A stretch of 64,000 nt of DNA from Calditrichota bacterium (GTDB lineage: Bacteria; Zhuqueibacterota; Zhuqueibacteria; Zhuqueibacterales; Geothermadaptataceae), in contig QQUE01000015.1 of assembly GCA_008501765.1 (NCBI GenBank), positions 186,001 to 250,000 on the forward strand, read 5' to 3'. Of the stretch, positions 2,492 to 62,549 are shown piece by piece. The position numbers and the translations under genes were made by a program. Each line of letters opens with the position of its first letter. Position 1 is the first letter of the stretch. Under the pieces are notes generated by a model. It made no database searches. It had not been told where the DNA came from and saw only the letters and a program-made list of their open reading frames with translations.

Positions 2492-3916
2492 TCAGACAGA
2501 AAATTTCTTTCTAAAAATTCGTTTCGCGTTTTCTTCAGTCACCTGCTTCTCCCCCCATGCTCGTTCGTTGAGCCAATGGGCAAATTGGCTTATTTTTTCG
2601 TAACGAGTGTAAGCTGCAGTTGTTCGGCACAAGGGGATGACAGTTTTATTGGTTAGCAAAGGATCTGCATTTTCCGGAAAATTCCCAGCCGCAATCGCCC
2701 TGTTGTAATCTTTTGTACCTGGAATGGGGCTATAAGAACACAAACGCACGCGAACTCCGAGGCTATGGGCATAGCCTATCGTTTCCACAACTTCTTCGAT
2801 TTTTTGCCCGGGCAACGCCATGATAATATAGGTTTCGAGGTCTTTTGGCTTGAATCCTGCTCGCACCAGTCGTCGCACAGCGCGTGTCATTTCACCGGGT
2901 GTGATTTTATTGTGGATATCACGCTGCCTTTCTTTCGCGACCGATTCCAGGCTTAAGCGAATCGTACGGAAACGGGCGCGAAACATCAGCTCAGCTAGCT
3001 CTTCGTCGATAAATCGAGCGTGCAGTCCATTCGGTGCGTGCAACGAAATATCCGTCTTGCGTGAAATTATATCCCGCAAAAGTGGTTTGATGTGATTTTC
3101 AGCCTGCATGAAAAGCGCATCATCATAAAATGCGATCTGTGACACACCATATTTTTTCGTTTGTTGTTGCATTTCCTGCACGACTTTTTCCGGTTGCCGC
3201 AGCGAATAGCCACTTAAATTATTGGTGGCACAAAATGAGCAGGACAGCGGGCAGCCGCGAGTCGCCATCATCACGAGATAATCCAAGCCGTGCAATAAAT
3301 CCCAGGCAGGAAAAGGATAGGAATCGAAAGAGGTCGGCAGGTTGTTTTCCAATTTGGGTCTTTTGAGCAGATGGCCCAGCAGCGGCAGAAGCCCCTCTTC
3401 CGCGGGGCCGGTTAAAAGATAATCCGGTGCAATAGTTTCGCGAGCGTGGTCAGGCATGAGCGTTGCATAAATTCCTCCGAGCACGACAGGCACACCGGGA
3501 AATATTCTCCGGCACAATTCAACAACTTTTTTTACACCCGGATACCAATAAGTCATGATTGAAGTCACCAAAATAACTTCCGGCTGATTTCGATTTTTTA
3601 AATCTTCGATAAAAATCGATTCCGGCAAGCCGTAGCGCGCAAAATGACGCGGCATAAATTGCAGGCATTGCGGTTTCTCAACTATCTCCCGGTGGAAGGG
3701 GCCAATCCCTCCTTTTCGCCGTTTTGGGCGGCTCCGTTTTTGTCGCTGCAACAATTCCGGATGCCAGCGGTCAAGACAGTCGATAAAATCCACATCCAAT
3801 CCGTGTTGACGCAGCAAAGCCGCAATGTAGAGCAAACCCAGCGGTTTGCTCCAAAAATCGTAGGCAGCGAAATCATAAATCCAGGGATTAATACAGAGAA
3901 TTTTTGCATCGTGCAT
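2492..3916 (-). CDS. B12-binding-domain radical SAM protein
   Basis: The N-terminal ~180 residues look like a cobalamin-binding Rossmann domain (PLGLLYIAALLRQHG, then PVVLGGIYATLMPDHA). The radical SAM domain follows, with the cluster motif CPLSCSFCA in the usual MMATRGCPLSCSFC context. Such proteins use S-adenosylmethionine and often cobalamin for methylation or difficult rearrangements; the substrate cannot be told from sequence. No class-specific partner lies next to it: the downstream esterase is the only likely operon mate. The start at ATG 3916 has no clear ribosome site, so the true start is somewhat uncertain. It could be a hopanoid- or lipid-modifying enzyme, but nothing here decides this. 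Confidence 0.8.
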   Translation of the reverse strand: MHDAKILCINPWIYDFAAYDFWSKPLGLLYIAALLRQHGLDVDFIDCLDRWHPELLQRQKRSRPKRRKGGIGPFHREIVEKPQCLQFMPRHFARYGLPESIFIEDLKNRNQPEVILVTSIMTYWYPGVKKVVELCRRIFPGVPVVLGGIYATLMPDHARETIAPDYLLTGPAEEGLLPLLGHLLKRPKLENNLPTSFDSYPFPAWDLLHGLDYLVMMATRGCPLSCSFCATNNLSGYSLRQPEKVVQEMQQQTKKYGVSQIAFYDDALFMQAENHIKPLLRDIISRKTDISLHAPNGLHARFIDEELAELMFRARFRTIRLSLESVAKERQRDIHNKITPGEMTRAVRRLVRAGFKPKDLETYIIMALPGQKIEEVVETIGYAHSLGVRVRLCSYSPIPGTKDYNRAIAAGNFPENADPLLTNKTVIPLCRTTAAYTRYEKISQFAHWLNERAWGEKQVTEENAKRIFRKKFSV

Positions 3917-4014: not shown

Positions 4015-5184
4015 TCAGCGGTTGAAAAAATCATTGATGATGGCATTACGGTCTTTTTCTTTCAGGACTTCCAATTCGCCGAGATACACGTGGCCATCGG
4101 CTGGGACTTTGGATTCATCTTCCGTTGCCGTGACCGATTTTTTTACATAGTCATTCAAATGAGAAATATCTTCATTAAAAAGATCAACAGCCGCCTGGCC
4201 GATTTTAAGTTCTTTCAGTTCTTCGTCCAGATTATTTCCCTCGACTACGCAAATCCGGCTTTTGCCGTAGGCCGAATTGTCCAACTGTTCGAGGTCTTCC
4301 AACAAGGGGCGGTTTACGAGTGTTACTTTCCCGCTTACCGGGGATTTAAATGGAATGGAATGCGTCTTCTGCAAAACACTGAAGAGATGATCGCCTTTTT
4401 TAACTTCCATTCCAAGGTTTGGCAAATCGATATCATCAATTTTGCCAATTATTTTCTTGGCAAAATCATCGATCCCGATATCTACCCGGCCATTCTGGTT
4501 TATCGTCGCCCAGCAATGCCCTTCAGATATAAAAACACCTCCGGGAATCGAGAAAGCGACATCGGCGTGCTTTTCTTCAAATGAAGAGTGGGTGATTTTG
4601 ACATTGGATTTTAGCTGCTTGTCCATACGTGCTTTTCGTTTAATCAGGAATTTATTGGTCATCGCCAACAATTCATCTTCGGTAAACGGTTTTTGAACGT
4701 AGTCCAGAGCGCCGAATTTCATTGTTTCGACAGCCGTATCAACCGACGCGTAACCGGTAATAATTATCACGTCGATATCCGGCCGCACATGTTTCACCGA
4801 TTTACACACATCAACCCCATCCATTTCCGGCATTTTTAAATCGGTAAAAACAAAATCATAGTGGCGTTTGCGGATGAGCCCAAGCGCCTCCTGACCCGTT
4901 TCAACCGTATCTACGGAATAGCCATCGAGGACAAGAATTTTTCTAAAACTATCCAGGATGATTTCTTCGTCATCCACCGCCAGAATTTTTGCTTTTGGAT
5001 AATCCACCTCGACCCGTTTTAGAGATTTAGCCTCATGACTGAAATCCAGGTTGAGGTTGACGGCAAGCACTTCTTCCCGTTCTTTACGAATCCGTTTTTC
5101 AGCTCTTTTTCTGATAATTAAACGAATAAAAACATCAGCAACGATAAAGATGACAACAGCGACAATTAAGAGTAGTATACCCAT
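4015..5184 (-). CDS. membrane-anchored response regulator with GcvH-like domain
   Basis: The start is the ATG at 5184, preceded by GGAGG 5 bases away; the upstream ATG at 5196 overlaps this ribosome site. Layout (389 aa): an N-terminal transmembrane helix (MGILLLIVAVVIFIVADVFI), a basic linker, a receiver domain at about 65-185 with phospho-acceptor Asp115 (FTDLKMPEMDG), and a glycine-cleavage H-protein-like domain at about 222-331 (VDIGIDDFAKKIIG ... SPVSGKV). In GcvH the lipoyl lysine lies eight residues before the P of PVSG; here that place is Thr274, with a Lys just before it. There is no DNA-binding domain. It is the last gene of the redox operon, after a second regulator of the same design. 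The output mechanism is unknown. Confidence 0.85.
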   Translation of the reverse strand: MGILLLIVAVVIFIVADVFIRLIIRKRAEKRIRKEREEVLAVNLNLDFSHEAKSLKRVEVDYPKAKILAVDDEEIILDSFRKILVLDGYSVDTVETGQEALGLIRKRHYDFVFTDLKMPEMDGVDVCKSVKHVRPDIDVIIITGYASVDTAVETMKFGALDYVQKPFTEDELLAMTNKFLIKRKARMDKQLKSNVKITHSSFEEKHADVAFSIPGGVFISEGHCWATINQNGRVDIGIDDFAKKIIGKIDDIDLPNLGMEVKKGDHLFSVLQKTHSIPFKSPVSGKVTLVNRPLLEDLEQLDNSAYGKSRICVVEGNNLDEELKELKIGQAAVDLFNEDISHLNDYVKKSVTATEDESKVPADGHVYLGELEVLKEKDRNAIINDFFNR

Positions 5185-5230
5185 TTCAACCTCCATTTAT
5201 GTTCTAAATCTCATATCATAATTGTTTTAT

Positions 5231-6043
5231 TTATAATCTATCTGAACTGCAGGGAATAAGATATTTTGTTTCATAATCCAAATTTGCCGGAACGATTGAA
5301 TAGACCCACCCTCTGAAATAGGGATCTTTTTCGATGATGGCATAATTATTCAAAATCTCTTCATTCCGTTTAATAATCCGGCCGCTTACCGGAGCTAAAA
5401 TATTATGTATAAAGGCATCTTCAGTCATAATTTGTGCACACATATTTCCTTGAAAAATTTCATCCTCCGCTTTGTGCAAATTAATCTGTTGCAATGTACC
5501 AATCGTCCGAAAAAACAGGTCAGTCAAACCGATTTTCAATGATCCATCGTCTTCGAGCAGTGTCCATGTTGCGTACCCTAACCGTTTGTATTTTGGAGGG
5601 CATGGAATATAATGGATCAATTCATCAATAGCGTCAGAGGACAATGTTTCCTTGGCCACTTGTCGTTGAATTTGTGAGTATTTTAGACCGCGGCCAACAA
5701 TGCTTATTAATTCGTCAAATGTAAATGGTTTTGGCAGAAAATCGACGGCACCACGATAGAGCGATTTAACAGCATTCTCCAAAGTAGAAAAGCCTGTGGT
5801 AATAATAACCGGGGTCCCGATTTCTTTTATTCGTAATTGCTCAAGAAATTCAAAACCATCGATGCCGGGCATCATAATGTCGCAGATTATGAGATCGTAA
5901 GTACTCGTATCCAATTTATGCAATCCAACTTTTGCATCCAAAGCAGTGTCGACAAGCCAGCCTTCGGCCCCACATAGTTTTACTATCGAGTCCAGGATAA
6001 CCTGTTCATCGTCAATCGCACAAATTTTAAGTTTTTCACTCAT
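5231..6043 (-). CDS. soluble response regulator with GcvH-like domain
   Basis: 270 residues: receiver domain 5-120 with acidic pair Asp11-Asp12, phospho-acceptor Asp55 (CDIMMPGIDG) and the LPKPF lysine, then a GcvH-like domain at about 155-255 (LKIGLTDLFFRTIG ... APVSGRI). The residue at the lipoyl-lysine place is Ala210, so the domain should not carry lipoate. Unlike its neighbour it has no membrane helix. AGGAAG precedes the ATG. It begins 15 bases after the histidine kinase stop codon, and is the obvious phosphorylation partner of that kinase. Whether the GcvH-like part binds the redox complex, another protein or a small molecule is not known. Confidence 0.85.
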   Translation of the reverse strand: MSEKLKICAIDDEQVILDSIVKLCGAEGWLVDTALDAKVGLHKLDTSTYDLIICDIMMPGIDGFEFLEQLRIKEIGTPVIITTGFSTLENAVKSLYRGAVDFLPKPFTFDELISIVGRGLKYSQIQRQVAKETLSSDAIDELIHYIPCPPKYKRLGYATWTLLEDDGSLKIGLTDLFFRTIGTLQQINLHKAEDEIFQGNMCAQIMTEDAFIHNILAPVSGRIIKRNEEILNNYAIIEKDPYFRGWVYSIVPANLDYETKYLIPCSSDRL

Positions 6044-6058
6044 TTAATGCTTCCTGTT

Positions 6059-7936
6059 TTACAGCTCTTTTTCAATTGGCAAGCGGATGGTAAAAGCGGT
6101 TCCCTTGGCAACCTCACTCTCAACGGTAATCCGGCCATTATGGTTATCAATAATACCCCAAATTACGGCCAAACCAAGTCCCGTGCCTTTTTGGCCTTTT
6201 GTCGTAAAAAAAGGCTCAAATATTTTTGACATGTTTTCCTGCGGGATACCACAGCCTGCATCCGAAACTACTATTTCCACATATTCCTTTTTTCCTTCCT
6301 TCTCTATTGCTTCCCAATACTGCCATTTCCCTCCTTTGATTGCACAGCCTTCAAACCGCCCTTTTCCCGGCACCTCAAAGAAATAAACCGGCCCCCCACA
6401 TTCCGGGCACTTTTTGCTTTTATGAAGTAACGAAACATTGCACTGGGGACAGGAAATATCAACTTCTGATTTATCTTTTAATTTGACACCATGGAGGTTG
6501 CGATTTTTTCCGTAAACTGGATCAAGATTTATGAAACCTTCTTTACCATCCGCATTGGCCTGCACCCGAATTGAAGGCATGCCTTTTATTTTTACGGTCT
6601 GATCCATTAAATTATGTCCGTTGGTGCAAAGCGCACTTTTAACCTGGGTTATTCCCCACGGAGCGAGGCTAATAAGATTCGTTCGCACCGTAATGGCGCC
6701 GCCGTTTTTGTCACTGGCATGAATAGCATTAACAATAAGATTGATAATAACCTGCTGCATCTGGTTCGCATCTACTGTGATTTCCGGCAGATTTTCATCG
6801 AATACTTTTTCCAGATTGATATGATTTATGCTAAGCTGATTATCAACAATGCTGATCGCCCTATCAATAATATCATTTATATTAGCTTTGTTCTTTTTGG
6901 GGATAGATTGTCGGGCGAAATCGAGCAAACCTTTGACAATTTCACGGCTTCGCTTGGTTTCGCGCACGATGACAGATAAATCTTCCTGAAATTCCGGATA
7001 ATTTTTGGTGCGCTTCAGGAGAAAACTGGAGTAGGTTAAAATTCCGGTCAATGGATTATTTATTTCATGGGCAACTCCGGCCGCCAGACGGCCAAGGGAA
7101 GCCATTTTATCCGACTGGAAAAGCTGCAAGCGCGCTTCAGCCAGTTTCTTCGTCATATTGTTAAATGACCGTGCCAGGGCGCCCAGTTCATCACTGCTAT
7201 TCATTTCGATGGTGTAATTCAGGTTCCCTGAAGCGACGCTTTTTGTTGCATCGACGAGCTTGTGCACCGGTTTGTCGACCCAGATCCGCACAAAATAGAG
7301 CAAGACACTGCTAATGGCCAGAATGACGATCAATGTGAATAGCAGCATCCGTATTTTCGAATTGGCCATTCGATCATCGATTGGGTTCAGGCTTACGGTG
7401 ACATCCAGCACGCCGAGCACAACCTGCTCTGAACTGTGCGCATGGCACGGAGCCCGATAACATGCTGGTTCATTATAAATCGGGTTGATCGTACCTAAAA
7501 CCCGGCCAGAATCCGATGCAAAAATCCTGCTACGGTCAGGAATGGATAGTTTTTCCAGCGGCTCGTCTGTCTCATGACAGGTGTAACAGGCTTCCGCATT
7601 TTTATCCACCATAATCCCAATGTGATCGGGATTGGATGAATAAATGATTTCGCCTTCTTTATTGAATATCCGTATTTCCTTAAACGAGTTCTGACGACCA
7701 ACTGCATTAATAATTTCATGGACATGCTCCCGCTCATTCAAAAGCATGCCGAATTTCGTACTGCTACGGATAGTCTCGCTTTGTTGATAAGTGTGACGTT
7801 CCGTTTCAGCAAGCAATGTTTTATTTTGCGATTGCACACTTACGTAAGAGAAAATCCCGATGATTATCGTTATGGAAATACCGACCGCAAAAATCAATTT
7901 AAACACTATTTTTTTAAGCATGGGCTTAACTTTCAT
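6059..7936 (-). CDS. heme-binding sensor histidine kinase with zinc-ribbon insert
   Basis: 625 residues. TM1 at about 10-31; an extracytoplasmic domain (32-195) with a CxxCH heme c motif (CYTCH, 117-121) and a Cx4CH motif (CYRAPCH, 159-165); TM2 at about 197-216; HAMP; and a HisKA helix with phospho-acceptor His290 (GVAHEINNPL). In the ATPase domain, N-box NLIVNAIHAS (399-408) and G1 box DAGCG (559-563) are separated by about 130 extra residues holding a zinc-ribbon pattern (CPQC 496-499, CPEC 510-513) plus Cys437 and Cys531. The F and G2 boxes (FEPFFTTKG, GTGLGLA) are intact, so the kinase is probably active. It sits between the 13-heme cytochrome and two response regulators, and probably senses periplasmic redox state through its hemes. 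Confidence 0.9.
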   Translation of the reverse strand: MKVKPMLKKIVFKLIFAVGISITIIIGIFSYVSVQSQNKTLLAETERHTYQQSETIRSSTKFGMLLNEREHVHEIINAVGRQNSFKEIRIFNKEGEIIYSSNPDHIGIMVDKNAEACYTCHETDEPLEKLSIPDRSRIFASDSGRVLGTINPIYNEPACYRAPCHAHSSEQVVLGVLDVTVSLNPIDDRMANSKIRMLLFTLIVILAISSVLLYFVRIWVDKPVHKLVDATKSVASGNLNYTIEMNSSDELGALARSFNNMTKKLAEARLQLFQSDKMASLGRLAAGVAHEINNPLTGILTYSSFLLKRTKNYPEFQEDLSVIVRETKRSREIVKGLLDFARQSIPKKNKANINDIIDRAISIVDNQLSINHINLEKVFDENLPEITVDANQMQQVIINLIVNAIHASDKNGGAITVRTNLISLAPWGITQVKSALCTNGHNLMDQTVKIKGMPSIRVQANADGKEGFINLDPVYGKNRNLHGVKLKDKSEVDISCPQCNVSLLHKSKKCPECGGPVYFFEVPGKGRFEGCAIKGGKWQYWEAIEKEGKKEYVEIVVSDAGCGIPQENMSKIFEPFFTTKGQKGTGLGLAVIWGIIDNHNGRITVESEVAKGTAFTIRLPIEKEL

Positions 7937-7939
7937 CCA

Positions 7940-9070
7940 TTATTGTAGCGTACGTTTTTGAATGAATTTTCCAGGCAATTTTTCCGGATATGTAATCTCA
8001 TCGTGGCATTCTGAACAAACCGGTTTTTGGTCATAACGCCGTTTTAAATGGCAGTCAACGCAATCATTATCTTCATGATTTTCATCGAAAATAAATCCAG
8101 TAACGCTGTGTTTAAAGGTGCCATTCTCCCAGTTTTTGTGGCATGCCGTACAAGTCTTATCAAGCCTTGAAAACCGGGTACCGCTGTGGCAATCCAAGCA
8201 CGTCAATTTATTGTGATATCGACTGAGAACCCATCCAGTAGTTTGGTGATCGAACGGGGGTTTCTCTTTTGTGTCATGGCACTTCAGGCAATCTTTGTCG
8301 TTATCCGTGTCACAATCGTGGCAGCTCTGACAATTTTCATGAGGCTCCATCTCCACATCGGCCGTTTTTTCCATCGTATCATGGCAGCGGCCGCAGGTCT
8401 CATTTTTATGACAATCAACACATTGTAAACCATAAATATCAGAGTGCGCATCGTGATAAAAAGTGACGATTGGATTGTCTTCATCCGTTTCGTAAACAAC
8501 TTTTGGCAGAATAGGCTCGGTAAACTGGCTCATTTCTGTAAAATTCGTCCCACCTGCGAGCGGTTCGTCGCCTTTTTCGACGTGGCATTTTATGCAGTCG
8601 GTGTCATGACTCCAATCTCTGTGGCAATTCAAGCATTGCCCGTGATAGGCGCCTTTCAATCCAATGACGGTCAAATCATCGCGCAATGCACCCGGTTTGT
8701 GGCATTCGATACAGGCTAAAATATCACCCGGTGGATTATTATGATGGCAGGAAGCACAGCCGCCGGTTGACAGCGCCGACATTTCCGCGTGCAATTTATG
8801 TTTAAAGATCGAAGGCTCATAAAGGTTGGCCAATGTATCAATCGTGACCAACGCTTCTACATCATCGGCCGGGCGCATTATAGACAGCCCTTCCCTTCTA
8901 AAGTCTGGAAATATCGTCAGGCACGGATTTTTATACGTTGGATTCTCACAAGCATGGCATTGGTTGCACTCCAGGGGTGCTTTTGCATGATTTTTAAATA
9001 CTGGCGTTTGAGAGAAAACCACATTGCCGGTGAGGCAAACGGTGAAAAACAGAGATAACATTTTCTTCAT
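7940..9070 (-). CDS. periplasmic 13-heme cytochrome c
   Basis: 376 residues with an N-terminal signal peptide (MKKMLSLFFTVCLTGNVVFS). I count thirteen CxxCH motifs: CNQCH, CASCH, CIECH, CLNCH, CIKCH, CVDCH, CGRCH, CQSCH, CLKCH, CLDCH, CTACH, CVDCH and CSECH. The many extra His residues fit bis-His ligation as in class III cytochromes and the HmcA/TmcA group. The start codon overlaps the NrfD stop (ATGA) and is preceded by AAGGGG. With the ferredoxin and NrfD genes it forms the usual set for a membrane complex that moves electrons between the quinone pool and the periplasm. The heme count matches none of the well-known Hmc (16), Nhc (9) or Qrc (6) cytochromes, so the complex type is left open. 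Confidence 0.93.
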   Translation of the reverse strand: MKKMLSLFFTVCLTGNVVFSQTPVFKNHAKAPLECNQCHACENPTYKNPCLTIFPDFRREGLSIMRPADDVEALVTIDTLANLYEPSIFKHKLHAEMSALSTGGCASCHHNNPPGDILACIECHKPGALRDDLTVIGLKGAYHGQCLNCHRDWSHDTDCIKCHVEKGDEPLAGGTNFTEMSQFTEPILPKVVYETDEDNPIVTFYHDAHSDIYGLQCVDCHKNETCGRCHDTMEKTADVEMEPHENCQSCHDCDTDNDKDCLKCHDTKEKPPFDHQTTGWVLSRYHNKLTCLDCHSGTRFSRLDKTCTACHKNWENGTFKHSVTGFIFDENHEDNDCVDCHLKRRYDQKPVCSECHDEITYPEKLPGKFIQKRTLQ

Positions 9071-10311
9071 CGAATCACCCCTTTCAATCTGATTTTCATG
9101 CTGGCGGCAGTGCCTTTTAATGGTTGACTAATCACTGGAAAAATCATCACAATCAATCTATAGAGCAAAATTTCAAGTGCGATAACACCCAAGGTTACCG
9201 AGATTTCTCCGAAGCTTGGCCAATATGGTTTATCTGCATAAAGCGGGGTGTAGGCTATTATAAAATTATTGAATCTGTTGAGCAGTACGCCAAATATTAC
9301 AAGATTTGAGGCGATAAATAACCAGAATGGGGATCTTTGTACTTTTTCATATAAAAACATACGCAGCGGGACAATAATACCGATTACGATTTCAACGACC
9401 CACATCACACTTTCAAGCGTGATTTCATTCAGATAGACAAATGTTTCGCGAATGGCCATATCCCCAAGCTTAAATCCCAAATATATGCCGAGAAGCGGGC
9501 CAACAAAACGGCTCAATTTTGAGAGAACGTGCATTTCGGGTTTCATTCCAAAGGAGCGAGATGAAATCAGCGATTCCATTATTACCATGGGAAAACCAAC
9601 CGATATTGCTGAGAGCAAATACATCAATGGTGCGATTGGGGATTGCCACAGCGGATGGATTTTTGTCCCTGCAATCATCATTAACGTGCCCAGAGATGAC
9701 TGGTGCAAACAAGAAAGCACCACCCCGAGAATTATGAAAAAAAACAAGGCTTTTTCGATGATACGGTCCAGGAATCGCAATACAGAATCAAGAATTTTAT
9801 TAAATCTGGCAAGAAATCCTTTAAAATTAATCCGCCCGATAAACCGCTCCGTCACGATCGGCATGAATTCGATGTACAAGACTGAAACATAGGCCATGAC
9901 ACAGATGCCGACTTCAAAAAGAACAGAGTTTCCATTCCACATATAAAGTGGATGGTAAATATAGTAGTAGCGTCCCAGGTCGAAAACAACACCGATTGCT
10001 ACAAATGTATAACCAAGCATTGCTGTTAATAATGCCGGGCGAACGATATCATGAAATTCATCTTTATGAAAAATATAGGCCAATGCGGCGGTCGTAAATC
10101 CGCCTGCAGCCAGCGCTACACCCGCAGCTACATCAATTCCAATCCAAATTCCCCAGGGATACTGATTATTTAAATTGGCGACTGCTCCAATCCCTTGAAT
10201 AAACCGAACAGCGCCAAAAAACAACCCATTGACAACAAGAATGGTCAAAACAATAGTTAAAGGTGTAAAAAAGGGTCTTTTAACAGGCATCGCCTTCATC
10301 GATGAATGCAT
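9067..10311 (-). CDS. NrfD/HybB-type quinone-interacting membrane protein
   Basis: 414 residues with about ten hydrophobic helices, matching the NrfD/PsrC/HybB family of integral membrane subunits that exchange electrons with menaquinone. The opening PFFTPLTIVLTILVVNGLFF followed by YPWGIWIGIDVAAGVALAAGG is typical of the HybB-like branch. The ATG lies one base after the ferredoxin stop, with GGAG inside the end of that gene, so the two are translationally coupled. It should anchor the ferredoxin and the 13-heme cytochrome at the membrane. No large catalytic molybdopterin or hydrogenase subunit is encoded here, so the complex looks like a pure electron-transfer module, as in Hmc or Nhc. Confidence 0.92.
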   Translation of the reverse strand: MHSSMKAMPVKRPFFTPLTIVLTILVVNGLFFGAVRFIQGIGAVANLNNQYPWGIWIGIDVAAGVALAAGGFTTAALAYIFHKDEFHDIVRPALLTAMLGYTFVAIGVVFDLGRYYYIYHPLYMWNGNSVLFEVGICVMAYVSVLYIEFMPIVTERFIGRINFKGFLARFNKILDSVLRFLDRIIEKALFFFIILGVVLSCLHQSSLGTLMMIAGTKIHPLWQSPIAPLMYLLSAISVGFPMVIMESLISSRSFGMKPEMHVLSKLSRFVGPLLGIYLGFKLGDMAIRETFVYLNEITLESVMWVVEIVIGIIVPLRMFLYEKVQRSPFWLFIASNLVIFGVLLNRFNNFIIAYTPLYADKPYWPSFGEISVTLGVIALEILLYRLIVMIFPVISQPLKGTAASMKIRLKGVIR

Positions 10312-10312
10312 A

Positions 10313-11218
10313 TTATTCTCCTGACTCGAGTTCGTTTCCGTTTTTATTTTTACCCATCCACATTATGCCGCCCAGAAGAGCGAACAAGGAGATCGGAGGA
10401 ATGAAATATTTAAATATAGCATGCTGAATTGACTCAGATGCGCCGGGAGCCGGTGCATCGCTATGCTCCGGTAGCGCGAGTTCTTTAAAATCCCTGGCCG
10501 CCAAATACATCCACGAGGTGCCACCAACTTCGTGTTCACCATAAATATGATTGATATAGCGATCTGGATTTGCTTCTATTTTTTTCCGGGCCAATTTAAC
10601 GAGTTCAAATCGTTTCCCGTAAGTGAGAGCTTCCATCGGACAAATTTCCACACAGGCAGGAATGCCACCGTCTTTTGTGCGATCGAAACAAAAGTCGCAT
10701 TTCATAATTCGTGGTTGAATTGCTTTTTCATATTCGAATGCCGGTACTTGAAACGGGCAGGCTACCATACAATAGCGACAGCCGATGCATTTATCCGTAT
10801 CCCAAATAACAGCGCCATTCTCTTGCTTTGAAAAAGCTCCTACGATACAGGCAGAAACACAGGCAGGCTGGTCGCAGTGCATACATTGCACTTTAACATC
10901 GATTGGCCGGGCTGTGTTTTCAGGATTTTCAAATTGATTGACAACAGTCAGCGCGTCGACGTCCGGCCTTCTCATATTTTCAAAAACGGAACGATCGTCA
11001 TAATCTTTCATCTCACCATTGGGGATATCATGCGCACCACGGCATGCAAATTCACACCGGCGACAGCCAATACAAACGGTTGTATCAACAAGAACCCCCA
11101 TGCGGTCGTCGGATAGAATGTTTTTTGGGCCTGCACTCACTTTATCGGGTTTTACTCCGGCAATGCCAGCGCCTATAACTCCAGCAGTTTTTATAAAATT
11201 TCGTCGGGATTGATTCAT
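10313..11218 (-). CDS. Tat-exported four-[4Fe-4S] ferredoxin subunit (HybA-like)
   Basis: 301 residues. It has a twin-arginine signal (SRRNFIKTAG) and four cysteine groups of the DmsB/NrfC/HybA type: CIGCRRCEFAC, CMHCDQPACVSAC, CIGCRYCMVAC and CDFC...CVEIC. These would hold four [4Fe-4S] clusters. A C-terminal hydrophobic helix (IFKYFIPPISLFALLGGIMW) anchors it from the periplasmic side, as in HybA. It is the electron wire between the NrfD subunit and the multiheme cytochrome. Its ATG directly follows the stop of the NifX-like gene (TAAATG), with GGAGG inside that gene's end. The direction of electron flow cannot be told from sequence. Confidence 0.92.
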   Translation of the reverse strand: MNQSRRNFIKTAGVIGAGIAGVKPDKVSAGPKNILSDDRMGVLVDTTVCIGCRRCEFACRGAHDIPNGEMKDYDDRSVFENMRRPDVDALTVVNQFENPENTARPIDVKVQCMHCDQPACVSACIVGAFSKQENGAVIWDTDKCIGCRYCMVACPFQVPAFEYEKAIQPRIMKCDFCFDRTKDGGIPACVEICPMEALTYGKRFELVKLARKKIEANPDRYINHIYGEHEVGGTSWMYLAARDFKELALPEHSDAPAPGASESIQHAIFKYFIPPISLFALLGGIMWMGKNKNGNELESGE

Positions 11219-11569
11219 TTAGCCATCCTCCTTATTACTATTACCCGGCATCGAAAATAATGACTTTATATCCTCTCCATCACAAAGGGCTGATAGAATT
11301 TTATCCACATTTCCACAGACGTAAGGGATGGTTTTAATATTTTTGTTTCGGATACTGTCCAATAGCGGGCGTGTTATCCCGCCACAAATAAAGATATCAA
11401 TTCCGAGATTGTCTAATAATTCAATGCGTTGATAAATCGTAAGTGATTCGAGACTCAACATCTCTTTTTTGGCAAGCATTTTATCAATTATTTCTGCTTG
11501 CAGTATATGTGCTGTTGTATCGAACACAGGGGAAATACGATTTTCCCATACAGGAATTGCAACTTTCAT
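11219..11569 (-). CDS. NifX-like dinitrogenase cofactor-domain protein
   Basis: 116 residues from the ATG at 11569 (MKVAIPVWENRISPVFD). This start has GGAGG 5 bases upstream, whereas the longer frame to 11641 would run through the -24/-12 promoter. The fold is the NifB/NifX/NafY-type Fe-Mo-cofactor-binding domain (IPV.ENR.SPVFD..., ...FICGGITRPLL). There are no nitrogenase genes in the window. Small proteins of this family occur beside iron-sulfur and redox genes and may carry metal clusters or act as regulators. It is the first gene of the redox operon. The last ~15 residues (MPGNSNKEDG region) are a poorly conserved tail. Confidence 0.8.
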   Translation of the reverse strand: MKVAIPVWENRISPVFDTTAHILQAEIIDKMLAKKEMLSLESLTIYQRIELLDNLGIDIFICGGITRPLLDSIRNKNIKTIPYVCGNVDKILSALCDGEDIKSLFSMPGNSNKEDG

Positions 11570-11590
11570 GGCAGCCTCCGACCCGCAAAA

Positions 11591-11606
11591 AGCAAGGTTA
11601 ATGCCA
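11591..11606 (-). promoter_or_regulatory. sigma-54 (-24/-12) promoter of the redox operon
   Basis: On the minus strand the site reads TGGCATTAACCTTGCT. The GG and GC doublets are exactly 10 bases apart, as sigma-54 promoters need. Transcription would start near 11580, just ahead of the GGAGG and ATG of the NifX-like gene, giving a very short leader. A sigma-54 enhancer-binding protein is encoded directly upstream, which supports the call. Confidence 0.82.
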
Positions 11607-11695
11607 TGAAAACCATAACAAGATAACTGTTTTAAAAACAATTTTTTATAATGAGAATTAATTATTTAATTGTAAGAATAAAGAGAAGCAATCTT

Positions 11696-11721
11696 GCTAC
11701 TGTGAAACCCTATACAGTAGC
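11696..11721. promoter_or_regulatory. upstream dyad 1, likely enhancer-binding site
   Basis: GCTACTGT (11696-11703) and ACAGTAGC (11714-11721) form a perfect 8-bp inverted repeat with a 10-base gap. It lies about 90-115 bases upstream of the -24 element, a normal distance for an activator of sigma-54 RNA polymerase. It shares the GCTACT/AGTAGC core with the neighbouring dyad. Confidence 0.7.
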
Positions 11722-11723
11722 AG

Positions 11724-11741
11724 AGTAGCAAATTCGCTACT
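11724..11741. promoter_or_regulatory. upstream dyad 2, likely enhancer-binding site
   Basis: AGTAGCAAATTCGCTACT is an inverted repeat with 6-bp arms and a near-symmetric centre. It starts 3 bases after dyad 1 and ends 16 bases from the stop codon of the enhancer-binding protein gene. Two such sites suit binding of activator dimers before they form a hexamer. Confidence 0.68.
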
Positions 11742-11757
11742 ATAGAAACACGAGGAA

Positions 11758-13134
11758 TTAGACGGTGTTTTTGCTGCGGCCATCAATTGCGGGGAGTGTG
11801 ATACCTAATTGCTTGATTTTTCGGAACAAGGTTGTTTTATGAATACCAAGTTTTGCAGCCGCGGCAAGGCGGTTCCAGTTGTTCTTTTCAAGCGCGTCGA
11901 GAATCGTGCGTTTTTCCAGGTCCTTCACCGATTCATCTTCTATTTTTACCGGGGTTGCGATGTTTTTTGAAATGATTAAATCGGGGGGCAAATTTTCCAG
12001 TTCAATAACTTTTCCCGGGCATAACACCAGAGCACGCTCGATAATATTTTCCAATTCGCGTACATTGCCCGGAAAATTATACTGCATGAGCACTTCCAAA
12101 ACTTTTGGCGAGGTGCCCTCCACATTTTTACCGAGAATGTGGTTGTGCTTCTTTCTGAAATGTTTGACCAGATACGGTATGTCCTCCGGCCGCTCGCGCA
12201 ATGGAGGAATGGTAATTTTGATAATATTTATTCGATAATACAAGTCCTGCCGAAATTTTCCTTCTTCAACCAATTGCGATACATTTTTATTCGTCGCGGC
12301 AATCACTCGAACATCAGCTTTGATAGTTTCTGTGCTGCCAAGGGGTTCGTATTCCTTATCCTGTAAAAACCGCAACAGCCTGACCTGAAAAGCAGGCGAT
12401 ATATCGCCAATTTCATCCAGGAGAATTGTCCCACCTTCAGCTTGGGCAAACCGTCCCTTTTTATCTCTTTTCGCATCGGTAAATGCTCCGGCTTTATAGC
12501 CAAAAAGCTCGGATTCGAGCAGAGTATCCGGCAGGGCACCGCAATTCACGGCAATGAGCTTTTTGTTTTTCCGCTTGCTTAAATCATGAATAACCCGGGC
12601 AAAAAGCTCCTTCCCGGTACCGCTTTCCCCTTCGATCAAAACCATGCTGCCACTTTGAGCGACCTGGGGCAGAATATCAAAAATCAGTTTCATATTCCGG
12701 TTCTTGCTGATGATATCGGAAAAAGTATATTTTTTTTCCAGTTCTTTGCGCAGCTTGCTTTCCAAAGAAAGATCGCGCATGATTTCAACAGCCCCGATTA
12801 TATGCCCTTTTTCCCCTCGGAGTGAAGCTGTTGAAATGCTGACAGGAATCTGTTCGCCGGAAGAATTGAGGATGTAAATGGTTTTCGAGGTAACCGGTTC
12901 TCCGGTTTCCATCGTTTTATAGAGCACACAATCCGTTTCACAAATATTGGAACGAAACACATTGTAGCACGCCTGACCGATTGCATCTTCCCGGGATATG
13001 CCGGTTATTTTTTCAGCCGCCGTATTAAAGGTGGTGATTCGCTTTCCCTTGTCGATCGTGAAAACACCTTCGGTAATATTATCCAATATTATTTTGCTGT
13101 AGCGATCGACTTTTTTTTGATAGTCCCTTGGCAT
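11758..13134 (-). CDS. sigma-54 enhancer-binding regulator with Cys-PAS domain
   Basis: 458 residues: PAS domain (about 10-125), AAA+ ATPase (about 145-375) and Fis-type helix-turn-helix (about 410-447, LAAAAKLGIHKTTLFRKIKQLG). Walker A is GESGTGKE and Walker B is GGTILLDEIGD. The sigma-54 contact loop reads GAFTDA instead of GAFTGA, a variant seen in other family members. The PAS domain has Cys56, Cys65 and Cys69 (CYNVFRSNICETDC), which could bind an iron-sulfur cluster or react to redox change. It has no receiver domain, so it is not an obvious target of the nearby kinase. It probably activates the -24/-12 promoter just downstream by binding the two dyads. Confidence 0.9.
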   Translation of the reverse strand: MPRDYQKKVDRYSKIILDNITEGVFTIDKGKRITTFNTAAEKITGISREDAIGQACYNVFRSNICETDCVLYKTMETGEPVTSKTIYILNSSGEQIPVSISTASLRGEKGHIIGAVEIMRDLSLESKLRKELEKKYTFSDIISKNRNMKLIFDILPQVAQSGSMVLIEGESGTGKELFARVIHDLSKRKNKKLIAVNCGALPDTLLESELFGYKAGAFTDAKRDKKGRFAQAEGGTILLDEIGDISPAFQVRLLRFLQDKEYEPLGSTETIKADVRVIAATNKNVSQLVEEGKFRQDLYYRINIIKITIPPLRERPEDIPYLVKHFRKKHNHILGKNVEGTSPKVLEVLMQYNFPGNVRELENIIERALVLCPGKVIELENLPPDLIISKNIATPVKIEDESVKDLEKRTILDALEKNNWNRLAAAAKLGIHKTTLFRKIKQLGITLPAIDGRSKNTV

Positions 13135-13787: not shown

Positions 13788-16646
13788 ATGGCTACTCTAT
13801 CCTCTTCCAATTCTTTTCTGCATCGACATGTTGGTCCTGGCGAAGCCGAAACGAAAACCATGCTCGGTACGATGGGGCATGATTCCCTCGACACTTTCAT
13901 TGATGATGTGATTCCCGAAATTATTCGGATGCAGGGCAATTTGAACCTGTCGCCAGCACTTAGCGAGAGTGAAATTTTAATAAAAGCAAAATCTATTTTC
14001 TCAAAAAATAAAGTTTACCGCTCGGTCATCGGCCAGGGATACCACGGCACCAAGTTGCCCTCCCTCATCCTGCGCAATATCCTCGAAAATCCGGGCTGGT
14101 ACACGCAATATACACCGTATCAGGCTGAAATTTCCCAGGGGCGCTTGGAAGCCCTGCTCAATTTTCAGACGATGGTCCTGGACTTGACGGCGATGGACAT
14201 TGCCAACTCATCACTTCTCGACGAGGCCACGGCTGCGGCAGAAGCAATGGGCATGTTTTTCTCGGCACATCGACAGAAAAGAAAAATATTTTTTGTCTCC
14301 AAACACTGCCATCCGCAAACGATCGCCGTCGTTCAAACACGCGCCGAACCTTTGAATATTGAGGTTAAAATCGGCGATGAAGACACATTCAAATTTTCTG
14401 ATGAAGTATTTGGGGCATTATTGCAATATCCGACCACAGACGGTGCGGTCAAAGATTATTCAGACTTTTGTGCCCGGGCAAAAGCAGCGCAAGCGTACGT
14501 TACCGTCGCTGCCGACCTGATGAGCTTACTTTTACTGACGCCTCCCGGAGAATTTGGGGCCGATGCAGTCGTCGGCAATACGCAGCGTTTTGGTGTGCCG
14601 CTCGGATTTGGTGGACCACATGCTGCCTTTCTCGCTACCCGGGATCAATTTAAGCGCTCGATGGCAGGTCGGGTAATCGGCGTTTCGGAAGATGCCCAGG
14701 GAAACCCGGCTTTGCGCATGGCATTGCAAACACGCGAGCAACATATTCGCCGCGAAAAAGCAACTTCGAATATTTGTACCGCACAGGTTCTTCTGGCGAT
14801 AATGGCTAGCATGTACACAGTTTATCACGGGCCGGAAGGTTTGCGGCAAATCGCGCTGGATATCCACCATTTGGCAAAAACGCTGGTTGCCGGGCTCAAA
14901 AAATTGGGATTCAAACTCGCACACGATGATTTTTTTGACACGATAAAAATTAATTCTTCTGATGCAGCACTTATTTTGAAACGCGCAGTGGCCAAAAAAA
15001 TCAATCTCCGTTCTTATGCTGATGGTTTTGGCATTGCCCTCGATGAGATTTCAACATTGGACGAAGTTGAAAGCCTGCTCAAAATCTGCGCCGGTCAGGA
15101 AAAATTGAGTTTTTCAGTGTTGGATTTACTGGCAGAGCAAACGGAGGGCTATTCTGGAAATATGCAGCGCGAAACCGAATATTTGCAGCACCCTGTTTTT
15201 AATAATTATCATTCGGAAACAGAAATGCTGCGCTACATGCGTTCGCTGGAGTTGAAAGATTTATCGCTGGCCCAGAGCATGATTCCCCTGGGCTCATGCA
15301 CGATGAAACTGAATGCTACAACCGAAATGCTGCCGGTATCCTGGCCGGAAATCGGCAATTTGCATCCCTTCGCCCCGATCGATCAAAGCGTGGGGTATCA
15401 GGAAATGTTTACCGAGCTGGAAAAATGGCTGGCCGAAATTACCGGATTTGTGGCAATATCACTGCAGCCAAATTCCGGAGCGCAAGGTGAATACACCGGG
15501 CTTTTGGTGATCCGGGCTTACCATAAAAGTCAGGGAAATGGCCACCGCAATGTCTGCCTGATTCCTGCATCTGCCCATGGAACCAATCCTGCCAGCGCCG
15601 TCATGGCCGGGATGAAAGTTGTGGTTGTAAAATGCGATGACCACGGCAATATTGATGTCGAAGACTTACGCGCCAAAGCAGAAGAAGCCAATAATTCCCT
15701 TGCTGCTCTGATGGTTACTTATCCTTCAACCCACGGTGTTTTTGAAAATCGCATCAAAGAAATTTGCGATATTATTCATCAAAATGGTGGCCAGGTTTAT
15801 ATGGATGGCGCCAACATGAATGCACAGGTTGGCTTGTGCAAACCTGCCGAATTGGGCGCCGATGTCCTCCATTTGAACCTGCACAAAACATTTTCAATTC
15901 CACACGGTGGGGGAGGCCCGGGAGTTGGTCCGATTGGTGTGGTTGAACATTTGGTACCTTTTTTACCAGGGCATCCGGAAGTTAAAGTTGGCGGAGACCA
16001 GGCAATTGGACCGGTTGCCGCAGCGCCCTGGGGCAGTTCCAGCATCTATCCCGTCTCCTGGTCGTACATTGCGATGATGGGCGCTGAAGGTTTAACCGAA
16101 GCCACAAAAATCGCCATTCTCAATGCCAATTATATGGCCAAACGGCTGGCAAAAGATTTTCATATTCTGTACACTGGCAATAACGGCTGGGCAGCCCACG
16201 AATTTATTGTCGACCTGCGGGAATTTAAGCACAGTGCCGGAATTGAGGCCGAGGACGTAGCCAAACGATTGATGGATTACGGCTTTCACGCACCGACTTT
16301 GTCATTTCCAGTGGCAGGAACTTTGATGATTGAACCGACTGAAAGTGAGGCCAAGGAAGAACTCGACCGGCTCTGTGATGCGTTGATTTCGATTCGCGAG
16401 GAAATTCGCGAGATTGAAGAAGGCAAAGCAGACAAAGCTGACAATATCTTGAAAAATGCGCCACACACGGCTCATGTCATCACTGCTGATGAGTGGACGC
16501 ATCCCTACAGCCGTGAAAAAGCAGCCTATCCAACGGCCTGGACGCGCGCTCGAAAATTCTGGCCATCGGTCGGGCGTGTGAACAATGCCCTCGGTGACAG
16601 AAATCTGATTTGTGCCTGTCCACCAGTTGAAGATTACGAAGAATGA
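13788..16646 (+). CDS. gcvP: glycine dehydrogenase (decarboxylating), P-protein
   Basis: 952 residues, the length of the single-chain P-protein. It is the PLP enzyme of the glycine cleavage system: it decarboxylates glycine and passes the aminomethyl group to lipoylated H-protein. The PLP lysine is in [18 protein letters not shown], and the N-terminal half has the usual RHVGP start and family motifs ([16 protein letters not shown]). No gcvT, gcvH or lpd is nearby. The nearby H-like domains belong to response regulators and lack the lipoyl lysine, so they cannot replace GcvH. A strong terminator follows. The ATG is preceded by a weak GAGAA. Confidence 0.97.
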
Positions 16647-54241: not shown

Positions 54242-57200
54242 TTATTTGAGTAATAGCATTTTGCGGGATTCATGGAATTGGCCTGCCCTGATTTGATAAT
54301 AATAGACGCCCGAAGGAACAAGCGTTCCGCTATTTCCACGGCCATCCCAAAGTACTGTATGCATTCCCGGGCTCATCTGCCGGTTGACCAACGTTTTGAC
54401 TTCCTGTCCCAACGTGTTGAATATTTTCAACATGACATCGGTATTTTCAGGGAGCTGAAATCGGATATTCGTCGATGGATTAAACGGATTTGGATAATTC
54501 TGACTCAGTGAAAAAGATTGCGGAACATCCATAATCACAACGACGGGTCCATGCACTTCTTTGGCGCCGGAATAGGAAACATCCTCGAGTTTATAATAGT
54601 AGCGTTCACCAGCCACAGCCGTTACATCCACAAAACTGTAGTTGCCAGAGCCATCCGGTTTTATGAGTTCTGCATTGATTGGCACATACCCATCATCGCG
54701 TCGAATGCTGCGTAAAATGTTATAACCAAAATTATCAATTTCATTGGCAGTTACCCAATGCAGCGTTACTCCACTGGCAGCGAGGGCCGAAGCTGAAAAA
54801 TTGACCAATTGGACAGCATTTGTTACATCCCAACGCCGAGTTGCTTCAAGTTTGCCATCGGTAACGCGTACTTCGATAGTGTGCAACTTGCCTGAACCTT
54901 GTTTATAAACATAAACACTGGTTGAAGCCACGTGTTTGCCGTCGAGGTACCACAAATAGGAAAGTTGGTCACCATCGGCGTCAACAGCTGAAACACTGAA
55001 CTCAAATTCAGGTCGATTTCCAACGAATACCGCGCTTTCAGATGGCTGGGAACTGGAGATAATTGGAGCGCGGTTGGTGTTATTTACCTTAATTGTTACG
55101 AGGTATTCTGAAACGCCGCCTTTGCCGTCATTCGCCACAAAAATCACATCGTGGAATCCAGCATCATCGCTTGTTGTCGTCCATTCAAAACGCCGGTTGC
55201 CGTTGACGTTAAAAATAGCGCCGGCCGGTTTATTTTTTGCACTCAGCGTGATGGGATCGCCATCGGCATCGGAAGCAGCCACAGTGAAGGTGATCGAGCT
55301 GCCTTCATTAAGGACTTTCGATGGAATTTCCACGAATGCCGGGAAATTGTTTGTCTCACTCTGTGCGGTGAAATTAACCGTTTCCGAGCTCTTGGCATCG
55401 AGAATAGCTTTCACACCATTTTGCCCAACCACAGAGCCCAGTTTCCAGAATGCTGCCGCATAACCACGCTCATCCGTTGTTACTTGAGAGGCTTTCATAC
55501 TTCCGCCACCCTGGGTAATTATAAAAGAGACTGTAGTATTTGCTACCGGGTTGTTGTTGATATCCGTCACTAAAACACGTTGCGGATAAGAGAGAAATTT
55601 ATTCACTGTTCCCTTCTGCTGGTTTCCATCCACCAAACTCATGGAGGTAGCCGCAGAAGCGGCTGCTGTCAAATTGAAAGTAACCGGTGAATTGACCAAT
55701 CCATTTCCCGAAACACGAATCTGCCGTTCACCAGCATCCGCACCGAATGTAAAATCAACATTTGCGAAGCCTTCTTCATTGGAGACTTTCTGTACATCGG
55801 AGAGAACACCTGTGCCTTTTACCAGTGAATAACTTATAATTACGCCAGAAACCGGATTATCGAATTTATCCGTCACCCGAACAGACAGGCCACCACCTAA
55901 TTTTTGGTTAACGGAGCCAACCTGTGTCAACGCGGACAAAGCTTTTATTGCATAAGCAGTCCCACTGGTACCATAGGCTTGAAATGTTGTTGTTATTGAA
56001 ATTCCTGAGGCGATGGCTTGCATTATATTTGGCCCAACATTTGGCCCCAGGCGCCAATTAACGCGCGCCAAACCAAATGCATCGGTGCGAATTTGTGCGG
56101 TGGGTTGTCCATTAATTGAACCACCACCATAAGTTACTTCGTATGTCACCAAATGGCCAAATACCGGATTACCGCTGGCATCGAGCACTTTCAAGCCCGG
56201 GGCTTCCGGCAAAAGCTCACCAGCAGCGGCGCTTTGATCGTCACCCGGACCCGGGATAACAATGGTACCGGCGTTGGAATGGCCGGTGGCGCTGAATGAA
56301 ATTGGTGAACCACTCAAGCCGTCAGCATAGGCACGAACGGTGTTGTTTGAGCCACTTTGCCCGAGCACAAATGATACATTCGCCAATCCACTGGAATCTG
56401 TTCGAACCGGTTGCTGCTCTAAAATATATCCGGTTCCCGCTTCGATCTTAAAATTGATTGCATGATTAAAAATGGGATTATCGTTTACATCGGTAACTTT
56501 TACAACAAAAGGATTTTCCAGCACCGTACCCAAATTTCTTTCCTGACCATTGCCGGAATGGAGAGAAATTTTTGAGGCAGCCTGAGCCAAAAATTGAATT
56601 ATTGTGCCACTTGAAATATGCACACCGCTCGTCAACTCGATAGCCGTCACAGTCTTAATTCCTGCAACACGTGAGGAAACGTAGGCTTTAACGACACCTT
56701 CCGCATCAGAGGCTGTAACAGGCTGTTCGATATTATTTCCTTCCCCGGAAACCTGAATCGTAACATAACCACCGGAATAAGGATTATCAAATTTATCCCG
56801 TAAATGGATAACTATTTCAGATTTGGTTTGACCATCGGCCATAACAGGGGTTATTGCATCAATGTAGGAGACCAGAGAATCCGGTAAGCCGGCTTTTGCA
56901 GTCGCCTTAAAAACGATGGGAGCATTGAGTAGTAAATCTTGCCCATCTGTTGAGGTTGCTTGTAGTTCCTGTGCTAAATTGCCGAGCGCTCCACCGAGAT
57001 ACCACGATGTCGTCGCTCTGCCCTGAGCATCTGTGATGTCGACAAATGTGGTATCCGTGGTCCCGTTGAGTTTCCCGCCACCTTTTATAACTTTAAATTC
57101 AACAGGGTGCTGTCCCACCGGATTTCCTTGCCTATCTTTGACAACAACGACAAGCGAGTCATCGAGAATTTGACCAGCTGAACCGACTTGATTATTCCCG

Positions 57201-62062: not shown

Positions 62063-62549
62063 TCGGTCTCTCCTTGATTCGTCTATCAAGAGCGAAGGCA
62101 GGAATCCTTTTCCACGCCTTGTAGCAATTATTTTTTAGTTTATATGTTAGTTATCGTTTTATTCCTACCGCATCGTTAACAAACTTTATGCCAGTGGCAT
62201 TTTCTTCACAATTCAAGCTCAAAACAGCCGATTGCAGCCGTACACCAGACATAACACTGTCTCATGAAAGAACACTAAATTTGTGTTCCCTTCAGACACT
62301 GTTCCAAATTAATGCAGAGGGTAATTTGTGCTCAGAAATTATGGATCAAAAATCTGAATTTGATTTCAATGGATCGAATGAAAACCTGTCATTTTATGAA
62401 GGAAAATCAACCGGGGAATTATCACAATTCAACGGACTCATAAATCCACAAAAGGAAAGCAGTTAATTGTCGGGTTATCCAATTAAGTCAGCAAACTTAA
62501 AACTATGATTAATAGATAATTGTCCGCTAATTACACAAATTTTAAGAAT
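62063..62549. other. upstream region of the giant gene
   Basis: Should hold the promoter of the minus-strand giant gene. A 92-codon plus-strand frame (62188-62466) has no ribosome site and no recognisable product, so it is not called. GGGTTATCCAATTAAGTCAG near 62473 resembles, but is not identical to, the end of the fold-back element at 20189. Confidence 0.5.

Follow-up and report, generated by a model that had tools for sequence, protein, structure and literature searches.

The window analyzed here is a stretch of 64,000 nucleotides from the genome of a Calditrichota bacterium (assembly GCA_008501765.1, contig QQUE01000015.1, positions 186,001 to 250,000). Its positions 4015-13134 hold a set of minus-strand genes in which a ferredoxin-NrfD-multiheme cytochrome complex is encoded together with a heme-motif sensor kinase and two response regulators (RR1 and RR2), each composed of a receiver (REC) and a domain resembling the H-protein GcvH. 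We favor the reading that this locus encodes a self-regulated respiratory complex, made up of a quinol oxidoreductase, a heme-kinase relay, outputs acting by contact and a sigma-54 switch, and we give it a probability of about 0.5. That the complex, the kinase and the regulators form one unit is, in our judgment, nearly certain. The first-pass annotation, made from the sequence alone, had already proposed them as one device, and this proposal is strongly supported by the neighborhoods that recur in searches with the kinase ectodomain and with RR2. The genes of the locus are the following.

11758..13134, minus strand: P0008, PAS-AAA+(sigma-54)-Fis enhancer-binding protein, candidate dedicated activator (family search)
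11219..11569, minus strand: P0007, small NifX/dinitrogenase-cofactor-like protein, from its ATG (PF02579, below cut-off)
10313..11218, minus strand: P0006, four-cluster ferredoxin with a Tat-like start, HmcB/HybA-like (family searches)
9067..10311, minus strand: P0005, NrfD-type membrane subunit, HybB/HmcC-like (family searches)
7940..9070, minus strand: P0004, class III-type cytochrome c with 13 heme motifs (family search, motif count)
6059..7936, minus strand: P0003, sensor histidine kinase with a periplasmic single-Cache domain (family searches, model)
5231..6043, minus strand: RR1 (P0002), receiver and GcvH-like domain, without the lipoylation motif (family search, alignment)
4015..5196, minus strand: RR2 (P0001), N-terminal hydrophobic helix, receiver and GcvH-like domain, without the lipoylation motif

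The list of open reading frames (ORFs) and their translations confirmed the eight genes in the order claimed by the first-pass annotation, with listed spacings, from RR2 to the NifX-like ORF, of 34, 15, 3, −4 (an overlap), 1 and 0 nt. The claim that all eight are tightly spaced holds for seven of them, since the sigma-54 gene is set off by a gap of 188 bp once the start of the NifX-like gene is corrected. This gene is present, but its likeness to NifX is weak (PF02579, 18.9 bits against a cut-off of 26.3, E 0.0019), and its listed TTG start at 11641 is probably wrong; the true start is probably the ATG at 11569, which has a Shine-Dalgarno sequence just 5′ of it. Clear relatives of P0007 were found only in L223 and L231 among the loci compared. 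Pfam REC and GCV_H domains were both matched in P0001 and P0002 (GCV_H 54.6 and 54.3 bits, respectively; cut-off 22.2), and P0003 has the HAMP-HisKA-HATPase arrangement, with a second heme-type motif that we add to the first description. The 13 CXXCH motifs of P0004 were recounted, P0005 matched the NrfD family (PF03916, 76.7 bits, cut-off 25.8), and the four cysteine clusters of P0006 were read from its sequence, as was its N-terminus RRNFIK (Pfam TAT_signal, 18.7 bits, below cut-off). With the four-cluster ferredoxin and the multiheme cytochrome adjoining NrfD, the set is, by its predicted products, an NrfD-type quinone module. The genome, of 5.9 Mb, has four NrfD genes, and a sequence search of solved structures with this NrfD gave no match at E 0.001.

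To evaluate the conservation of the module, the genome_contigs collection was searched with a profile built on the kinase ectodomain (alignment A4), and the best 80 of 189 relatives were analyzed; proteins with at least four CXXCH were counted as cytochromes, and partners were counted within 6 kb. The query was built from loci found by GcvH, which biases it towards this context, and many of the 80 loci end at contig edges. These loci belong to Calditrichota, Ignavibacteria, Melioribacter and KSB1, as well as to beta- and gammaproteobacterial, acidobacterial, gemmatimonad and elusimicrobial metagenome-assembled genomes. We observed NrfD in 71, ferredoxin in 60, REC-GcvH in 64, a cytochrome in 71 and all four in 53 of them; where both flanks reached 6 kb or more (45 loci), the counts were 43, 42, 43, 40 and 40. 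The strict order ferredoxin-NrfD-cytochrome-kinase-RR-RR was found in 35 of the 80 loci, and a second order, REC-GcvH-(cytochrome)-(ferredoxin)-NrfD-kinase, in another 11.

In the second test RR2 was the sole query (E ≤ 1e-60). It was detected in 28 genomes out of an even sample of 395 from the phylum of Ignavibacteria, absences being soft because only four candidates were scored per genome. Neighborhoods were taken from 28 fetched loci (27 from this phylum and L235), which provided 26 RR2 genes flanked on each side by 3 kb or more; L210, L232 and L234, where no RR2 had enough flank, lie outside these 26. Within 6 kb, all 26 genes were accompanied by the heme kinase and by a cytochrome, 25 by ferredoxin, 24 by NrfD and 24 by all of these. 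Among 82 genomes of the window's own phylum, 14 of the 16 RR2 genes (the window's included) had NrfD and 13 the heme kinase in the same stretch. The counts of the two tests are not fully independent, because some loci overlap (L115/L044, L117/L060, L126/L070, L102/L072 and L085/L213). The first-pass annotation had named as damaging the finding of kinases and regulators mostly away from ferredoxin-NrfD-cytochrome genes; the opposite was observed, given that all partners were present in 24 of 26 RR2 neighborhoods and in 40 of 45 kinase loci. Additionally, the pairwise distances of six proteins across 50 single-copy loci correlated at 0.75-0.93, which fits co-inheritance but also a shared species history.

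Several loci speak against a fixed unit. REC-GcvH proteins in L046, L054 and L081 and RR2 in L061 have neither NrfD nor the heme kinase in their stretch; L073 and L076 have the kinase without NrfD (in L076 together with REC-GcvH and cytochromes), and L065 and L072 have NrfD without a called kinase. Among kinase loci with full flanks, L102 and L126 lack a cytochrome, L137 lacks both ferredoxin and a cytochrome, and L150 and L152 lack all four partners, perhaps through ORF calling, since the simple longest-ORF caller that was used can miss genes (L150, L152, L232). Furthermore, in the phylum of the betaproteobacterial genome G083, RR2 was detected in only one of 398 sampled genomes, G083 itself, again with four candidates scored per genome. 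The REC-GcvH proteins of L054, L081 and L046 (255-330 amino acids) are distant from NrfD, and in L054 and L081 the protein adjoins a kinase without the heme ectodomain, perhaps as a related system with another sensor.

The kinase carries three features of interest, two of them in its ectodomain.

7574..7588, minus strand: heme-c motif 1, CYTCH, residues 117-121 (motif alignment)
7442..7462, minus strand: heme-c motif 2, CX4CH, residues 159-165 (motif alignment)
6308..6691, minus strand: zinc-ribbon-like insert in the ATPase domain (CPQC..CPEC; CTNGHNLMD..PSI)

Both heme motifs, CXXCH and CX4CH, were invariant and in register in 20 of 20 kinases and in 42 of 42 aligned ectodomains, and both fell within residues 31-260 in all 127 distinct kinases recognized by the ectodomain profile (144 before 95%-identical copies were dropped). 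The sCache_4 family was matched with 24.0 bits by the isolated domain and 20.9 by the whole protein (cut-off 22.1). An AlphaFold2 model of the kinase (mean predicted local distance difference test score 88.4; 67-68 in the block with the first heme motif) had the Cache fold of WalK (Z 14.9; 135 residues superposed with a root-mean-square deviation (rmsd) of 2.2); Foldseek also matched GSU0935, a c-heme sensor of Geobacter, with E 4.2e-5, although the superposition was poor (rmsd 17.4). With a modeled Cache fold and a periplasmic CXXCH, the kinase is a heme-c Cache sensor in which heme binding is predicted. The best match of the ectodomain in a sequence search of solved structures, synaptotagmin-1 (E 6e-4), was taken as chance and discarded. 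As for the zinc-ribbon-like insert, its Pfam matches were zinc ribbons, all below threshold, and among loci in which kinases were called it never occurred outside a kinase.

We consider it likely that the kinase senses redox through heme. The two conserved heme motifs, the Cache fold and the potentials published for GSU0582 and GSU0935 (−156 and −251 mV), periplasmic c-heme chemotaxis sensors of similar fold discussed as redox sensors in a passage of PMC8396549, make it plausible that what it reads is the redox state of the complex. A different sensor role in the same device, by which the kinase would respond to nitric oxide or another heme ligand, comes from the nitric oxide-sensor behavior of one heme-Cache domain in passages of a 2026 preprint (PMC12889525): there, a signaling-associated domain (DUF3365/Tll0287) released nitric oxide slowly, like known nitric oxide sensors, which counts against redox sensing, and a stand-alone domain looked redox-like. 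We regard ligand sensing as a live but less likely alternative here, given that the window kinase has two heme motifs and not one, that it keeps steady company with a cytochrome complex, that the comparable Geobacter proteins are discussed as redox sensors, and that PF11845 (DUF3365/Tll0287, sCache_heme) was not among the seven Pfam families matched to E 5, a list from which HMMER filters may drop weak matches.

The phospho-sites of a relay from the kinase to the regulators appear intact. The phospho-histidine H290 was kept in 20 of 20 kinases, the phospho-aspartate D119 of RR2 in 13 of 13 proteins, and the aspartate of the window RR1 is present by eye; with these residues and the adjacency of the genes, kinase and regulators are a predicted two-component system. 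The RR2 model resembled receiver and H-protein structures, and its GcvH-like part matched 1onl with a template-modeling score of 0.91 by target (rmsd 1.6). With its spacing required, the lipoylation motif E[SA]xK was absent from all 75 RR1, 94 RR2 and 34 solo (receiver-free) GcvH-like proteins near NrfD or the kinase in which it could be read (9 RR1, 1 RR2 and 7 solo proteins were set aside as not readable), and was present in five of nine GcvH-like proteins located elsewhere. In the alignment, the window RR1 and RR2 also lack it, which places them outside the lipoylated H-protein/LbpA group. Two counts go against a fully disarmed domain: 20 of 169 motif-less REC-GcvH proteins have a lysine where the lipoyl spacing would put it (RR1 2/75, RR2 18/94), and a motif-like ESK with shifted spacing occurs in 2 of 84 RR1, 0 of 95 RR2 and 1 of 41 solo proteins. 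Separately, GcvH-like proteins with ESxKWVGP-type motifs were observed in L047, L051 and L066, from the window's phylum; they resemble lipoylated LbpA-type proteins.

The first-pass annotation had also supposed that the regulators adjust the complex by protein contact. The evidence for this is indirect: the family search matched no DNA-binding domain in the window RR1 or RR2; a hydrophobic N-terminal helix in 94 of 95 RR2 proteins (3 of 84 RR1 and 27 of 41 receiver-free proteins) predicts that RR2 is anchored in the membrane; and receiver-free GcvH-like proteins adjoin ferredoxin or NrfD in sister loci. From these observations we infer direct contact with the complex, and consider it somewhat better than an even chance. 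The same receiver-free proteins beside ferredoxin and NrfD, and the helix in 27 of the 41, would also suit GcvH-like domains that serve as assembly or structural factors of the ferredoxin-NrfD complex, with receivers that gate assembly or turnover and not activity. Nothing stands directly against this possibility, which sequence cannot separate from the regulation of activity and which we rate as a minor one. Several solo proteins of about 260-290 amino acids (L048, L049, L055, L064 and others) also share a conserved N-terminal C-W-V...YK(L/I)C, possibly a metal site.

The main argument for contact comes from a comparison of two wirings of the kinase family. The gene after the 127 distinct kinases encoded REC-GcvH in 79 cases, a REC-sigma54 protein in 23, another receiver in 8 and no recognized receiver in 17. 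The zinc-ribbon insert, scored by pattern, was present in 65 of the 79 kinases of the REC-GcvH wiring and in none of the 23 of the REC-sigma54 wiring (3/8 with other receivers, 11/17 with none recognized). Within 6 kb of the 23 REC-sigma54 kinases, receiver-free GcvH-like genes were found in 13 cases, REC-GcvH in 8 and neither in 5; the eight with REC-GcvH mean that the two wirings are not exclusive, a point that weakens the comparison. Eleven loci were chosen because they hold both a REC-sigma54 gene and GcvH-like genes without a receiver; in seven of them a sigma-54-like site with no more than one mismatch was located 24-64 nt before a GcvH gene, against a background of 60 of 1269 genes over a 360-nt stretch. 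In our reading, GcvH-like proteins would be partners of the ferredoxin-NrfD complex, with one wiring setting the amount made and the other fusing a receiver to the partner.

These data could be read in another way, with the regulators serving as phosphate sinks or as carriers in a relay and transcription through sigma-54 proteins as the actual output, as the 23 of 127 kinases that precede REC-sigma54 and the seven of 11 loci with a sigma-54-like site ahead of a GcvH gene might indicate. In the window, however, the sigma-54 protein P0008 had no receiver match in the family search and is thus not an obvious phospho-partner of the kinase, and the REC-GcvH proteins, with no DNA-binding match, are encoded in the complex's own operon, so that this explanation appears quite improbable. 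Elsewhere in the same genome, locus L237 (C17:20000-39900) contains a 26-heme cytochrome of 1136 amino acids near a one-motif heme kinase, a REC-sigma54 protein and several multiheme cytochromes.

Transcription of the operon seems to have a switch of its own, to which three candidate sites in the 188-bp gap would contribute.

11724..11741, no strand assigned: candidate upstream activator site 1, AGTAGC-N6-GCTACT (palindrome search)
11684..11701, no strand assigned: candidate upstream activator site 2, the site-1 palindrome with a single mismatch, at a distance of 40 bp
11592..11606, minus strand: sigma-54-like −24/−12 candidate TGGCAT-N5-TTGC, with a T-run and then a Shine-Dalgarno sequence after it

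Because a promoter-like site lies in this gap, the sigma-54 gene is probably a unit of its own and the operon consists of the other seven genes. The TGGCAT-N5-TTGC site is one of four matches to TGGCAC-N5-TTGC with at most one mismatch in the 64 kb; allowing two mismatches, the window has 71 sites against 69.7 expected, which is the chance level, and the argument for a promoter therefore rests on where the site is placed. In contrast, sites 1 and 2 are the only places in the 5.9-Mb genome that match the palindrome with at most one mismatch, against 34 per strand for a reversed control pattern. With the activator gene, the paired sites and the −24/−12 site, the genes have the layout of a sigma-54 enhancer-controlled operon at the sequence level, and the promoter-like site and the genome-unique palindromes suggest that the device has a dedicated transcription switch too.

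Of the 27 loci fetched from the phylum of Ignavibacteria, two, L223 and L231, have a PAS-sigma54 gene (product 52% identical to P0008) and a NifX-like gene ahead of ferredoxin-NrfD-cytochrome-kinase-RR-RR. Palindromes of the 5-6-5 type occur in their matching gaps, one exact in L223 and two with one mismatch in L231, where the pattern has four matches in the whole of the locus; their candidate −24/−12 sites, with two mismatches each by eye, are weak. The palindromes might possibly be a hairpin or terminator, since the stretch folds better than most shuffled versions (z −2.24; 6 of 200 shuffles equally good), but a terminator scan listed none at the palindromes, and palindromes of the same spacing lie in the matching gaps of L223 and L231. 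A sigma-54 site before ferredoxin genes in general was considered and rejected, with 6 of 114 ferredoxin genes having one as compared with the 60 of 1269 other genes, a result that does not favor the switch as a common property of the module.

Taken together, a self-regulated complex could operate as follows. The periplasmic ferredoxin, NrfD and the 13-heme cytochrome would form a quinol:cytochrome c oxidoreductase, as homology to Hmc/Hyb/Qrc-type modules indicates, and would feed periplasmic and outer-membrane multiheme cytochromes. The Cache domain, which its motifs predict to hold two covalent hemes, would equilibrate with this cytochrome pool, and over-reduction or over-oxidation of the pool would set the activity of the kinase. 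Judging from their recurring adjacency and intact phospho-sites, the kinase would phosphorylate the soluble RR1 and the inner-membrane-anchored RR2, whose H-protein-fold outputs may bind the complex from the cytoplasmic side, with NrfD as the most likely docking point, and may adjust the complex in activity, coupling or assembly. The PAS-sigma54 activator would turn the operon on by binding the two unique palindromes upstream of the −24/−12 promoter. The more specific proposal that the two-component system throttles the quinol:cytochrome complex allosterically and non-transcriptionally, with the disarmed GcvH fold as the docking output and the kinase insert as an adaptor for the regulators, is a tentative one that we place a little short of even.

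The GcvH-like domains and a divergent, full-length gcvP next door (window 13788-16646, plus strand) could point to glycine cleavage. We rejected this link and consider it extremely improbable: the window regulators have no lipoylation motif, the GcvP profile matched only the window among the loci compared, and a strong GcvH is encoded elsewhere in the genome, at C15. The position of gcvP beside the REC-GcvH locus is probably a coincidence. Among the other genes of the window, a B12-binding radical SAM gene lies just downstream of RR2 (2492-3916, minus strand), with a relative called in one other locus, L079, and an ORF of 2615 amino acids extends over 54242-62089 (minus strand).

The first-pass annotation knew of no functional description of this set. 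A literature search of open-licence PMC papers likewise found no description of the assembled set, of the recurring device or of a disarmed GcvH output; what does not stand is the novelty of its electron-transfer part, as ferredoxin-NrfD quinol:acceptor reductases are proposed in passages of PMC3534657 and PMC9386147. The electron-transfer part, two-motif heme sensors and the other parts are thus already known as kinds, and it is their joining into one device that is apparently undescribed.

To our knowledge, two-component control of respiratory chains is mostly transcriptional. Regulators that have no DNA-binding domain, and whose output domain is common to proteins adjacent to the complex, would, if this reading is true, let electron flow be controlled quickly and directly, and some of the lineages concerned respire minerals. 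The same reading would assign a testable function to H-protein-fold domains of the non-lipoylated branch, and Melioribacter, which has the module, is a genus with a cultivated member in which it could be tested.

Among known systems, Hmc of Desulfovibrio (HmcABCDEF) shares with this locus the HmcB- and HmcC-like subunits and a multiheme cytochrome of class III modules. It differs in having 16 heme motifs where P0004 has 13, and the two-motif heme kinase and two REC-GcvH proteins are found here. The NCBIfam scores were below cut-off (HmcB 329/420, HmcC 282/550 and HmcA 53/400 bits), and no candidate for HmcD-F, nor any further membrane or Fe-S subunit gene, was present within 4015-13134, so that by these scores the locus falls outside the Hmc complex. 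In D. hydrothermalis, a CheY-like regulator gene near hmcF shifts its expression along with the hmc genes, according to a passage of PMC4162548. HybA-HybB of group 2 [NiFe]-hydrogenases is also similar (P0006, 244/263 bits for HybA; P0005, 353/450 for HybB; both below cut-off), but there was no hydrogenase subunit among the ten proteins searched here, and a multiheme cytochrome stands in its place.

A further likeness is to the ferredoxin-NrfD(-multiheme) sets of M. roseus and MBNT15, proposed as quinol:acceptor reductases that lead towards an outer-membrane Fe(III) reductase (passages of PMC3534657 and PMC9386147). They are probably the same kind of electron-transfer complex, likened here by description, and those passages name no kinase or REC-GcvH genes. 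Locus L216, arranged like L101 and L108 of Melioribacter, continues after the module with cytochromes of 19, 16, 4, 14 and 4 hemes, of which those with 19, 16 and 14 score above cut-off for the MtrC/MtrF domain profile, and it also has a cytochrome b561 and an unclassified protein of 421 amino acids. This series of predicted products fits electron export; a search of the window's first 22 kb called P0004 as the sole multiheme cytochrome.

The c-heme sensors of Geobacter have the Cache/PAS-like periplasmic fold of the window kinase, whose partners differ in being REC-GcvH proteins; for GSU0599 the likeness is by description. GSU0599 presumably adjoins the sigma-54 regulator BccR, which we take to control cbcBA. 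In passages of PMC8396549 and PMC3831638, GSU0599 appears among the two-component proteins and has two c-heme motifs. Finally, LbpA of the Hdr-like sulfur pathway is likewise a GcvH-like protein linked to a redox complex and has a strictly conserved lipoate lysine (passages of PMC6067878), whereas the GcvH-like domains described here lack the lipoylation motif and are joined to receivers.

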